NCBI GenBank assembly: GCA_003249035.1
Contig: QBMK01000002.1
Location: forward strand, 347,457 to 411,456
Length of the DNA stretch: 64,000 nucleotides
Reading direction: 5' to 3'
Source of the DNA: Pseudanabaena sp.
GTDB taxonomy: Bacteria > Cyanobacteriota > Cyanobacteriia > Pseudanabaenales > Pseudanabaenaceae
The notes beneath the pieces were generated by a model. The model was not told where the DNA came from and searched no databases. It saw only the letters and a program-made list of their open reading frames with translations. The position numbers were made by a program, and so were the translations under genes. Positions 35,226 to 41,906 of the stretch are shown in pieces. Position 1 is the stretch's first letter, and each line of letters opens with the position of its first letter.

Positions 35226-36830
35226 CTATATCAAATCGCCTAACATACTTGATACTTCACCTTGCATATTAGTGCGGTTGTCGTCATAGAGCATAAGGGT
35301 ATCAAGCTTCTTGTGGCGAGATAGTTTCTGGACTTTACGTACATTACCATTCGTCGCATCAAGGGCAGCGGTAATCGCAGAGTGGCGAATACGGTGGGGA
35401 GACATTTGTTTAGAAATTTGTGAGTCTCGCGCAATGCGATCAACAATTTGATAAATAGCCGTACCAGTCAGTCTGTGTCCACGATTAGCATGATCGAGAG
35501 CTTGAAATAACGGCAGATCTGCTTTTTTTGTCTCAAAGCAAGATAGCCAGTCTTGAACTGCGTTAGTACTTCCCATGCTAAGACTAATGAGACTCTTTTG
35601 AGAGCCACGTCCTTTGCCTAAGATTTGAAGCGATCGCCGTTCAAAATCAAAATCACCGATGTTAGCGCTTACAACTTCGTTACGACGTAGAGCATTGTCC
35701 CAAAGCAATCGCAAAATTGCAAAATCACGCTTTCCTTTAATCGTGTCGCGGTTAATGCTCAGCAACATTGTGCGAATTCCTTCAGGCTTAATCCCAGTAG
35801 TATCACGATAGGACTGAACTACCTCGGTTTGGACATCATCAAGATTCCAATTGCATTTTCCCAATTTGGCGGCAAAGTTCACTAAGGACTTCAGCGCAGA
35901 CAAACGGCGGTTAATCGTGGCTTCTTTTAAGCCTCTGACTATTAAGTCGGATTTATATCTCAAAGCAATCGCGATCGCCTCAAATCTATTCAATTGTAGA
36001 AATTGAGCAATTACTGCCTCAGTGGGCTTCTGCGCATAGGCTGCAAGAAAAAAATATCGCAAGTCCTTTTCATAGGCTCGTCTAGTGTTTAGACTCCGTT
36101 TATCGCTCAGCAGCGCCGTTAAGATGTCAGGACTAAATTCTGAGAGAGCATAGGAAAGGTTTGGGGCTGGTAAAATGATTTCCTCACCTATTCTCTCCTG
36201 AGTCGCTATAACCTCTATTTGAGTCCTATCGTGATTTCCATACTTAAGTTTTGATACATTAATTGCTCTCAATTGAGTCTCATTAGTCTCAACCATGGTC
36301 TCGTTATGCGTATCATTGTCTTTATTTAAGGCGAATCTCCTTTGGCTAAATCGCAACTGTTCGGGCGCGATCGCTTCGTTGTTAATACCTGCATTAGCTG
36401 CAACTCGCTTGACAAGCCCATAGATGGCTGTTCCTGTCAGTCTATGTCCATAATTAGCTCGATCTAGCGATATAAATAGCGGAGCTTGAGAATCTTCTAA
36501 TCCATTCTCAGCAGGTATATGAATCAAATTTAGCCAGTCTTGTAATGCAGTAGCTGTGTCTAAACTGAGACTGATAATCTCTGGTGAATTTTGTTGAGCT
36601 TGACGTTTATATCGCTGTTGAATCTGGAGCGATCGCGCTTTAAAATCAAAATCACTAATACTAATCGCAGATACCTGTTGACGTTTCAGCGAATTATCAA
36701 TTAACAAACGTAAAATTGCATAATCACGTTGACCGGCTAACGTGTAGCGATCGCAAGCCATGAGAATTCTCTCTGCAAAATTTGCAGTAGGAAAAGAAGA
36801 CAAGACTTTTAAAGGACTCTTTTTAGGCAT
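35226..36830 (-). CDS. Tyrosine recombinase with an inactive N-terminal duplicate of the catalytic domain
   Basis: The protein has 534 residues. The C-terminal catalytic domain (about 350-534) has all residues: Arg382, Lys406, His479/Arg482 (SPHRIRH), His506 and Tyr515. A SAM-like core-binding domain precedes it (about 230-330). Residues about 17-170 repeat the catalytic domain (both contain GHRLTGTAIY and DYAILRLL-like motifs), but Arg382 is Lys49, His479 is Glu157, and the His/Tyr end is missing. The duplicate cannot cut DNA. It may tether, regulate or dimerise the enzyme. It overlaps the preceding gene by 22 bases. It is unlike XerC, XerD or IntI. The frame is intact. Confidence 0.85.
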   Translation of the reverse strand: MPKKSPLKVLSSFPTANFAERILMACDRYTLAGQRDYAILRLLIDNSLKRQQVSAISISDFDFKARSLQIQQRYKRQAQQNSPEIISLSLDTATALQDWLNLIHIPAENGLEDSQAPLFISLDRANYGHRLTGTAIYGLVKRVAANAGINNEAIAPEQLRFSQRRFALNKDNDTHNETMVETNETQLRAINVSKLKYGNHDRTQIEVIATQERIGEEIILPAPNLSYALSEFSPDILTALLSDKRSLNTRRAYEKDLRYFFLAAYAQKPTEAVIAQFLQLNRFEAIAIALRYKSDLIVRGLKEATINRRLSALKSLVNFAAKLGKCNWNLDDVQTEVVQSYRDTTGIKPEGIRTMLLSINRDTIKGKRDFAILRLLWDNALRRNEVVSANIGDFDFERRSLQILGKGRGSQKSLISLSMGSTNAVQDWLSCFETKKADLPLFQALDHANRGHRLTGTAIYQIVDRIARDSQISKQMSPHRIRHSAITAALDATNGNVRKVQKLSRHKKLDTLMLYDDNRTNMQGEVSSMLGDLI

Positions 36831-37024
36831 GAATCAGCAGTAAATGCAATGCAAATCAGTGTCAGTATTCCATACCTTTCGTTAATACCAAAGCTCAACC
36901 ACTTTAGAGCTTGAGCTATAGATGAGCCACTGCCAGTAGAAGTGTTTGCTAGTTGCATCATGATATGGAAAATTAGATATGTAAAAACAATCGCTAGAAT
37001 CTTACTAATGAGTTTTTTATTCAT
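36809..37024 (-). CDS. Small membrane protein upstream of the recombinase
   Basis: The protein has 71 residues with two hydrophobic segments (about 7-26 and 50-66): ILAIVFTYLIFHIMMQLAN and YGILTLICIAFTADSC. Unknown family. Its end overlaps the recombinase start by 22 bases, which points to co-transcription. No catalytic motif. Confidence 0.6.
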   Translation of the reverse strand: MNKKLISKILAIVFTYLIFHIMMQLANTSTGSGSSIAQALKWLSFGINERYGILTLICIAFTADSCLKRVL

Positions 37025-37030
37025 CTATGT

Positions 37031-37216
37031 TTAGGATTTGCTGCTTAAGACTTTGTATGCGATCGCGATTAAAACTACGCCTGCTAAAAAGGGCAACCAA
37101 TGATAGCGAACATAATAAAGTAGGCTATTAAAGAAGGCGTTAGCCTCGCGAGAAACCCATGCAGCGATTACGATCGCACCGACAAACATCGCAAGATACA
37201 TGGCAAACTTAAGCAT
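37031..37216 (-). CDS. Small membrane protein
   Basis: The protein has 61 residues with a strongly hydrophobic N-terminal segment (about 2-20) and another at about 38-57 (WLPFLAGVVLIAIAYKVL). It lies 6 bases before the next small membrane gene and is the first of a three-gene run ending in the recombinase. Unknown function. Confidence 0.6.
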   Translation of the reverse strand: MLKFAMYLAMFVGAIVIAAWVSREANAFFNSLLYYVRYHWLPFLAGVVLIAIAYKVLSSKS

Positions 37217-38741: not shown

Positions 38742-39716
38742 GTGGGTATTGAAATAATGGGAAAAGTAATAGCAACCGTAAATATGAAAGGTGGAGTCGG
38801 TAAAACTACCTTAACTGTCAATATAGCCACTTGCTTGGCGAAAATCCACCGCAAAAAGGTTTTAGTCGTAGATTTAGATACCCAAATAAGTGCCACGCTC
38901 AGCATGATTTCACCAGCCGAGTTTGCCAAGTGCCGCAAAGAAAACCGCACATTGCGAAATCTCGTTAGTCAGGCGATCGCTCGTTATGGTGTTCAAGTAA
39001 ATAATCCAGATGAAAAAGTATACCAAATTAAAGATCTTGTCATTCCTCATGCTTGTAAAGTCCAAGGTTTAGATCTATTAGTTGGTGATATTGACCTCTA
39101 TGATGAATTTCTAGTATCGGAAATGCTCTATAACCGATCGCTGCTGTATGAAGAGAAACAAACCTTTCAGCAGACTTGGAGCAAGTTCGAGCAGACCTTA
39201 ATCAAAGGTATTCTCGCTTCTGCTATTAATAATTATGACTTCATTATTCTCGACTGCGCCCCTGGATATAATTTGATCACTCGTAGTAGTCTTGTAGCAA
39301 GTGATTTTTATTTAATGCCAGCGCGACCTGAGCCTCTATCGGTTGTAGGTATTCAGTTATTAGAAAGACGAATTGAGAGACTTCGAGAAGTCTATCGAGA
39401 AGATGAATCGGTTAATATTCAGCTATTAGGGATTGTATTCAGTATGTCGGCAGGTTTTACGCTGAGCAGATATTATCAAAAAGTCATGGATCGTGTAGCT
39501 GCTGACTATAGCGTCGCCAAGATTTTTAAAACGAAGATTCCCAATGATGTCAACATCGCTAAAGCTGTAGATAATTTCATCCCTGCTTCCTTAGCTAATC
39601 CCAATTCAAGCGGTGCAAAAGCTTTTGCTGAGGTTACAGTTGAGCTTTTGAAGAAGTTAGAAGTCTCTCTAGGGAAGAAAGAACAAACTTCAAGGTTGAG
39701 TTTAGTTGATTTGTAA
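38742..39716 (+). CDS. ParA-family ATPase
   Basis: The protein has 324 residues from GTG 38742; ATG 38757 gives the normal start MGKVIATVNMKGG. The deviant Walker A KGGVGKTTLTVNIA, switch I region VVDLDTQ and LDCAPGYN are present. No ParB gene is adjacent. The long insertion (about 60-135) and YDEFLVSEM region are typical of cyanobacterial orphan ParA proteins that position complexes or plasmids rather than chromosomes. The cargo is unknown. Confidence 0.85.
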   Translation: MGIEIMGKVIATVNMKGGVGKTTLTVNIATCLAKIHRKKVLVVDLDTQISATLSMISPAEFAKCRKENRTLRNLVSQAIARYGVQVNNPDEKVYQIKDLVIPHACKVQGLDLLVGDIDLYDEFLVSEMLYNRSLLYEEKQTFQQTWSKFEQTLIKGILASAINNYDFIILDCAPGYNLITRSSLVASDFYLMPARPEPLSVVGIQLLERRIERLREVYREDESVNIQLLGIVFSMSAGFTLSRYYQKVMDRVAADYSVAKIFKTKIPNDVNIAKAVDNFIPASLANPNSSGAKAFAEVTVELLKKLEVSLGKKEQTSRLSLVDL

Positions 39717-41799: not shown

Positions 41800-41906
41800 T
41801 AAACCAAAGCAAGCTTACGAATTTAGTTTTACTATCTAGCTTGCGTAAATATCTATTATCGTAAACTAACAAATTTTATGTAAATTCGTAAGCTAGCTTT
41901 GGTTTA
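41800..41906. mobile_element. MITE-like element with 26-bp terminal inverted repeats
   Basis: The ends 41800-41825 and 41881-41906 are inverted repeats of 26 bases with one mismatch (AAACCAAAGC...). A TA flanks each end (41798-41799 and 41907-41908), compatible with TA-targeting IS630 elements. The interior (55 bp) has no gene. It lies in the gap between the FecR and VOC genes. A source transposase with these ends is not in the window; the two IS630 copies here have different ends. Confidence 0.65.

Follow-up and report, generated by a model that had tools for sequence, protein, structure and literature searches.

A Pseudanabaena tyrosine recombinase with a duplicated, inactivated catalytic half and a linked dif-like site flanked by helically phased half-sites

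A tyrosine recombinase gene with two catalytic halves

The window analyzed here, a 64-kb stretch of Pseudanabaena DNA, carries on its minus strand a gene for a 534-aa tyrosine recombinase and, directly upstream, two small open reading frames (ORFs). The features of this locus are as follows.

35226–36830, minus strand: tyrosine recombinase with two catalytic halves, 534 aa (ORF, Pfam and BLASTP)
36342–36788, minus strand: pseudo-catalytic N-half, residues ~15–163, a proposed arm-site DNA-binding module (residues, dN/dS, fold)
36393–36434, minus strand: predicted DNA-reading helix of the N-half, residues 133–146 (secondary structure, comparison with XerH [PMC5241119], GHRLTGTAIY near-identical between halves)
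36126–36341, minus strand: linker, residues 164–235, low-confidence and fast-evolving (pLDDT, dN/dS)
35811–36125, minus strand: SAM-like core-binding domain, residues 236–340 (PF02899 at 240–321, dN/dS 0.04)
35229–35792, minus strand: intact catalytic domain, residues 347–534, with R382, K406, H479, R482, H506 and Y515
36809–37024, minus strand: 71-aa small membrane-protein-like ORF, overlapping the recombinase start by 22 bp
37031–37216, minus strand: 61-aa small membrane-protein-like ORF, upstream

Pfam finds two Phage_integrase matches (PF00589) and one Phage_int_SAM_1 match (PF02899) in the protein. A sequence-only reading of this gene had proposed that its N-terminal 170 residues repeat the C-terminal catalytic domain, and BLASTP aligns the two halves at 44% identity over 151 aa (residues 22–172; E 3e-35), bearing out the repeat while shortening it to about 150 residues (about 15–163); at the DNA level the halves are still 70–75% identical, in pieces. 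The C-half has the R-K-H-R-H/W-Y residue set and the catalytic fold of a tyrosine recombinase (PF00589), and all six of its catalytic residues are invariant among the 25 genus proteins compared. In the same proteins the N-half invariably has Lys (K49) at the catalytic Arg position and Glu (E157) at that of the HxxR His, the two substitutions that the reading had named, and it retains the HxxR Arg (R160). The Tyr end, also described there as lost, is absent rather than mutated, together with the His/Trp position, because the repeat ends just past HxxR. The linker between the halves, which ranges from 51 to 85 aa in the genus, is probably disordered or flexible, with a modeled pLDDT mostly below 50.

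AlphaFold models the N-half confidently within the full protein. Folded alone, the N-half is a XerA/XerD-like catalytic domain (Foldseek E 2e-6) that superposes on XerA residues 97–243 with Z 17.0 over 145 residues, and it also matches the MrpR/YopR and SroF proteins (Z 10.5–12.3). The prediction of some other fold would have spoken against an internal pseudo-catalytic domain; the domain exists, its predicted fold is that of a recombinase catalytic domain and it is under selection (see below), so this part of the earlier reading stands.

The two small ORFs lie directly upstream of the recombinase gene in most of the genus; most relatives have them in the opposite order to the window, and the 61-aa ORF usually stays beside the recombinase. 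As the reading had noted, they run into the recombinase gene, and the overlaps suggest co-transcription.

The N-half is old and under purifying selection

We detected the gene in 25/25 other genus genomes searched. The full frame was readable in 24 of these, which with the window's own gives 25 proteins (G006 has a contig-end piece only), and the two-half layout sought in homologues is present in all 25 genus genomes with a readable gene. Named relatives are Pseudanabaena and a few strains labeled Phormidium tenue, Oscillatoriales or uncultured cyanobacterium, and a search of the window's own genome for a close paralogue of the recombinase found none. The neighborhood is conserved and includes ParA-like, cytochrome-b-like and, in some genomes, glycosyltransferase-like genes (names read from their sequences). 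The ParA-like ATPase gene (window 38742–39716, plus strand), ~2 kb from the recombinase gene, is ~87–95% identical genus-wide and keeps its position.

The N-half is under purifying selection: its dN/dS is 0.17, compared with 0.57 for the linker, 0.04 for the core-binding domain and 0.08 for the C-terminal catalytic domain, and 44/144 of its positions are invariant in the 25 proteins. Outside the genus, the N-half is also present in G031 and G032, which represent two other genera of the same family. The N-halves form one clade in the tree (support 91/87; 90% of bootstraps), and because they group together, the duplication and inactivation are old. The other homologues examined have one catalytic domain in open frames of ~300–395 aa, and many are plasmid-borne in cyanobacteria. 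A candidate second two-half protein on a Calothrix plasmid (L051) was rejected, its halves being adjacent separate recombinase genes; this locus (Calothrix sp. NIES-4105 plasmid2, L051 5952–9226) has three neighboring one-half recombinase genes of the same family. On a 33-kb contig (G045:C2; L154 4722–7219), a one-half homologue follows two genes, one ParA-like and the other perhaps ParB-like, an arrangement that is possibly a plasmid partition and multimer-resolution module. As part of the explanation that we think probable overall, the Pseudanabaena protein would be a vertically inherited, single-copy, Xer-like recombinase.

A single-copy dif-like site is linked to the recombinase gene

Among one-half homologues, we found 11-6-11 dyads upstream of the gene in 44/65 loci and downstream in 8/65, against 4% in shuffles, many of these loci being close relatives; one example is GGTTACGGAAA-cgttca-TTACCATAACC. 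A position weight matrix (PWM) was built from 20 dyad sites of one-half homologues and run on the 64-kb window. Its top score (23.4) falls between two genes ~5 kb from the recombinase gene, on a dif-like core that supplies the att-like site which the earlier reading had suggested looking for. The features of the site region, including the flanking elements described below, are as follows.

41839–41866, plus strand: dif-like core GCTTGCGTAAA-tatcta-TTATCGTAAAC, 28 bp (11-6-11), intergenic
41813–41824, plus strand: left accessory half-site GCTTACGAATTT, oriented like the left core arm, gap 14 bp
41882–41893, minus strand: right accessory half-site (AAATTCGTAAGC on the plus strand), inverted, gap 15 bp
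41800–41825, plus strand: left arm of an extended 26-bp inverted repeat around the core, matching its partner at 25/26 positions
41881–41906, minus strand: right arm of the extended inverted repeat

Two other searches gave no usable site: dyads within ~1.5 kb of the gene in Pseudanabaena were mostly G+C-rich, terminator-like hairpins, and the pattern GGAAANNNNNNTTATC from one-half homologues had chance-level matches lacking good dyad arms in three genus genomes.

The core pattern occurs exactly once per genome in 21/26 genus genomes and the reversed pattern has zero matches; 364 other cyanobacterial genomes gave 0 matches. Relaxed searches added core sites in G009, G015 and G016, and no core site was found in G032 or, with relaxed searches included, in G001 and G017. 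Where site and gene share a contig, they are 5–8 kb apart in most genomes and 11–38 kb apart in some. The flanking DNA is unalignable between distant genomes, in which the core can be aligned. The locus thus has the composition of a single-recombinase Xer/dif system: one conserved recombinase and, linked to it, a dif-like site of ~28 bp that occurs once and has two arms around a short center. Linkage of recombinase and dif has been put forward as a possible hallmark of such systems (PMC5357621). Beyond the genus, G028, of the same family and with a one-half protein, has the core GGGGATGGAAA-taacca-TTATCATCCCC with no flanking copies, and cores of the form GCTTACGCAAA-n6-TTATCGTAAGC are found in G031, which has the N-half, and in G277 of the same genus as G031, where a contig end truncates the gene.

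Phased accessory half-sites flank the core of two-half targets

The core is flanked by two accessory elements. The left one resembles GCTTACGAAATT and is oriented like the left arm, and the right one corresponds to the reverse complement of that sequence. Only these two elements and the core are alignable between distant genomes. Allowing at most 2/12 mismatches, the left half-site is found at 21/22 sites and the right at 22/22, compared with 7/482 control windows of the same loci further away; one left match (G020) is far out, at ~85 bp, and the G015 site, examined for accessory half-sites, showed none clearly. The gaps between core and accessory element cluster near 5, 15, 26 and 37 bp, in steps of one helical turn (Rayleigh R 0.95 on the right and 0.91 on the left, with nominal p-values that overstate independence). 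Because the genomes are related, counts across them are not independent events. In G031 and G277, GCTTAY abuts the core on both sides, one turn closer.

The accessory consensus was taken from the same data, and it is supported by the distant control windows and by a second probe, the outer seven bases of each core arm, which avoids a motif read from those data. Both flanks match this probe at 14 of the 22 two-half sites and at none of the 22 one-half sites, against a chance rate of 2%. The accessory arm-type sites that characterize arm-binding recombinases are therefore present beside the core as sequence elements. Linker length showed no overall correlation with the right gap (Spearman 0.15, p 0.49) and no significant one with total spacing; its correlation with the left gap is weak and uncorrected for kinship (rho 0.45, p 0.04). 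Among proteins with a site, the three whose linkers are shortest (51, 51 and 56 aa) all have the minimal 5–7/5 arrangement.

A predicted DNA-reading helix shared by both halves co-varies with the outer arm

In XerH, the equivalent of the predicted DNA-reading helix enters the outer major groove (PMC5241119). Alignment places XerH H309 and Y344 at H479 and Y515 of the Pseudanabaena protein, and the aligned helix at residues 456–469 in the C-half (the GTAIYQIVDRIARD region) and 133–146 in the N-half. The two halves are most alike at GHRLTGTAIY, where they are near-identical. Across homologues, the helix class GTAIY goes with the outer arm G[CG]TT in 4/4 cases and other helix classes in 0/16. Since the helix is shared by the two halves and predicts the outer arm, both halves should read GCTTACG, the sequence common to core arms and accessory sites. 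At loci L051–L115 several helix classes go with distinct outer arms, among them EAIRRL with TAGTGCG and DxIRK with GTTCTCG-like arms, which suggests that the family may have a readable helix-to-arm recognition code.

A proposed arm-binding mechanism and its alternatives

Because helix-phased extra half-sites flank the targets of two-half proteins and are absent at one-half targets, the role of the N-half points to DNA binding, rather than to the control of strand choice or pairing that the sequence-only reading had proposed for it. We therefore favor, as the probable explanation, a Xer-like single-recombinase system in which the duplicated, dead catalytic domain would grip the accessory half-sites while the intact part recombines the core. 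The core-binding and intact catalytic domains would act on one chromosomal dif-like site (window 41839–41866). The N-half, having lost catalysis and kept its DNA-reading helix, would be tethered by the flexible linker and grip the accessory half-sites, one to the left and one to the right of the core; two protomers per site would supply two N-halves for two accessory sites, and the whole-turn spacing would hold the complex on a single face of the DNA. Only the full site would then be a good substrate, as with the arm-type sites of lambda Int, and by the same analogy occupancy of the accessory sites would make binding tighter and more specific and could license the synapse or set its orientation.

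The same half-sites might instead be occupied by extra full-length protomers through their ordinary core-binding and catalytic domains, with the N-half serving protein–protein contacts only. This would fit the resemblance of the accessory 12-mers to the core arm plus one base (GCTTACGTAAAT), with which they share 10/12 positions, yet 22 one-half homologues have the same core-binding and catalytic domains and sites lacking accessory copies, and what accessory sites and core arm share best is GCTTACG, the outer heptamer, the part read by the catalytic domain in XerH (PMC5241119). We consider this unlikely. More doubtful again is the idea that the N-half acts without DNA, as a pseudo-enzyme whose contacts with the catalytic half control strand choice or pairing: invariant loss of catalytic residues (K49, E157) in a domain under selection is what such a regulator would show, whereas the DNA-reading helix is almost unchanged, the C-terminal segment that serves cyclic partner exchange in the family is missing from the N-half, and accessory DNA sites co-occur with it.

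Slightly less probable still is an alternative without recombination at the site, in which an unrelated DNA-binding protein uses the 28-bp dyad, with the repeats beside it, as an operator or another regulatory element. The dyad is intergenic, and dyads are commonly bound by regulators; however, it was located by a matrix built from sites beside recombinase genes of the same family, has 11-6-11 architecture, occurs in one copy per genome and only in the genus, stays alignable between genomes where neighboring DNA does not, and has an outer arm that co-varies with the recombinase helix. That the N-half is a functionless, decaying remnant of a tandem duplication is hardly credible, since, although the catalytic residues and the domain end are gone, its dN/dS is 0.17 against 0.57 in the adjoining linker, 44/144 positions are invariant in 25 proteins, the predicted fold is intact and a single origin is common to other genera.

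Comparison with known recombinase systems

XerH/difH and XerS/difSL (PMC5357621, PMC5241119) likewise comprise one chromosomal tyrosine recombinase linked to one dif-like site with two ~11-bp arms, and their core-binding plus catalytic architecture is that of the C-terminal part of the Pseudanabaena protein. Unlike them, the Pseudanabaena system has an extra pseudo-catalytic N-half and phased accessory half-sites, its site is 5–8 kb away in most genomes rather than adjacent, and its role with dimers is a putative one.

Arm binding is otherwise known from recombinases of the lambda-Int type (PMC8138268, PMC4880445), in which an N-terminal DNA-binding module, as proposed here for the N-half, precedes the core-binding and catalytic domains, and accessory sites flank the core. 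By contrast, the Pseudanabaena module is a copy of the protein's own catalytic domain and does not have the classical arm-binding fold common to those subgroups (a Pfam search of the protein gave no match to an arm-binding domain), and its gene is chromosomal and vertically inherited. A survey distinguishes simple tyrosine recombinases from a monophyletic group that has arm-binding domains, those of the known complex recombinases being thought to share one origin (PMC8138268); the Pseudanabaena recombinase fits neither group. The 'Cyan' subgroup of that survey consists of Xer-like recombinases from cyanobacteria, presumed to substitute for Xer in Oscillatoriophycideae. It may resemble the Pseudanabaena recombinase in this respect, and it differs in that simple recombinases usually have only core-binding and catalytic domains.

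A recombinase fold that has lost catalysis and acts as a DNA-binding protein is known from MrpR (PMC10516654). MrpR/YopR and SroF share with the N-half the tyrosine-recombinase fold and the loss of catalysis; they are phage repressors that stand alone, whereas the dead domain in Pseudanabaena is joined to a recombinase that looks active. RitA also repeats a domain within a tyrosine recombinase, although there the two copies are core-binding rather than catalytic domains and the protein belongs to a transposable element (PMC8138268). A literature search for duplicated or inactive catalytic domains in tyrosine recombinases found no precedent for the layout, which is not proof of absence. We lean somewhat toward the view that arm binding arose here independently, for a second time among tyrosine recombinases, the enzyme's own catalytic domain having been copied and inactivated and its helix reused on phased half-sites, at a putative chromosomal dif site in cyanobacteria. 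If true, this would be a separate route to arm-site control, beginning from the enzyme's own catalytic domain.

A possible role in chromosome-dimer resolution

Genome-wide dif prediction failed in 5/5 cyanobacteria tested (PMC3025954) and some cyanobacteria have no ordinary Xer (PMC8138268). The Pseudanabaena recombinase scores 122 bits over the whole protein against TIGR02225 (XerD; curated cut-off 329.6) and 127 bits against TIGR02224 (XerC; curated cut-off 335.15), and a search of the genus genomes for any gene above the TIGR02225 cut-off found none; other, scattered recombinase genes are also present in the genus. Conservation, single copy and the absence of an XerD-grade gene suggest that the system resolves chromosome dimers. 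This is the weakest step of the proposal, because the site lies 21–29% of the contig away from dnaA, not opposite it, and sampled GC skew was weak and gave no terminus. The recombinase and its site are nameable and testable, and they offer a candidate for the missing dimer-resolution site of cyanobacteria together with a putative helix-to-arm code.

Copies of the site also occur on two other sequences. A 12.6-kb contig that is possibly a plasmid (G021:C8; L309 ~502–529) has the copy GGTTGCGTAAA-ccgcca-TTATCGTAAGC, with a left accessory-like element, GGTTACGATTTT, at a gap of 5 bp. A 39-kb viral contig (IMGVR_UViG_3300018080_000325; L310 237–264) carries the core GTTTGCGTAAA-taacca-TTATCGCAAAC with the common genus center, and it may be a mobile element exploiting the host recombinase.
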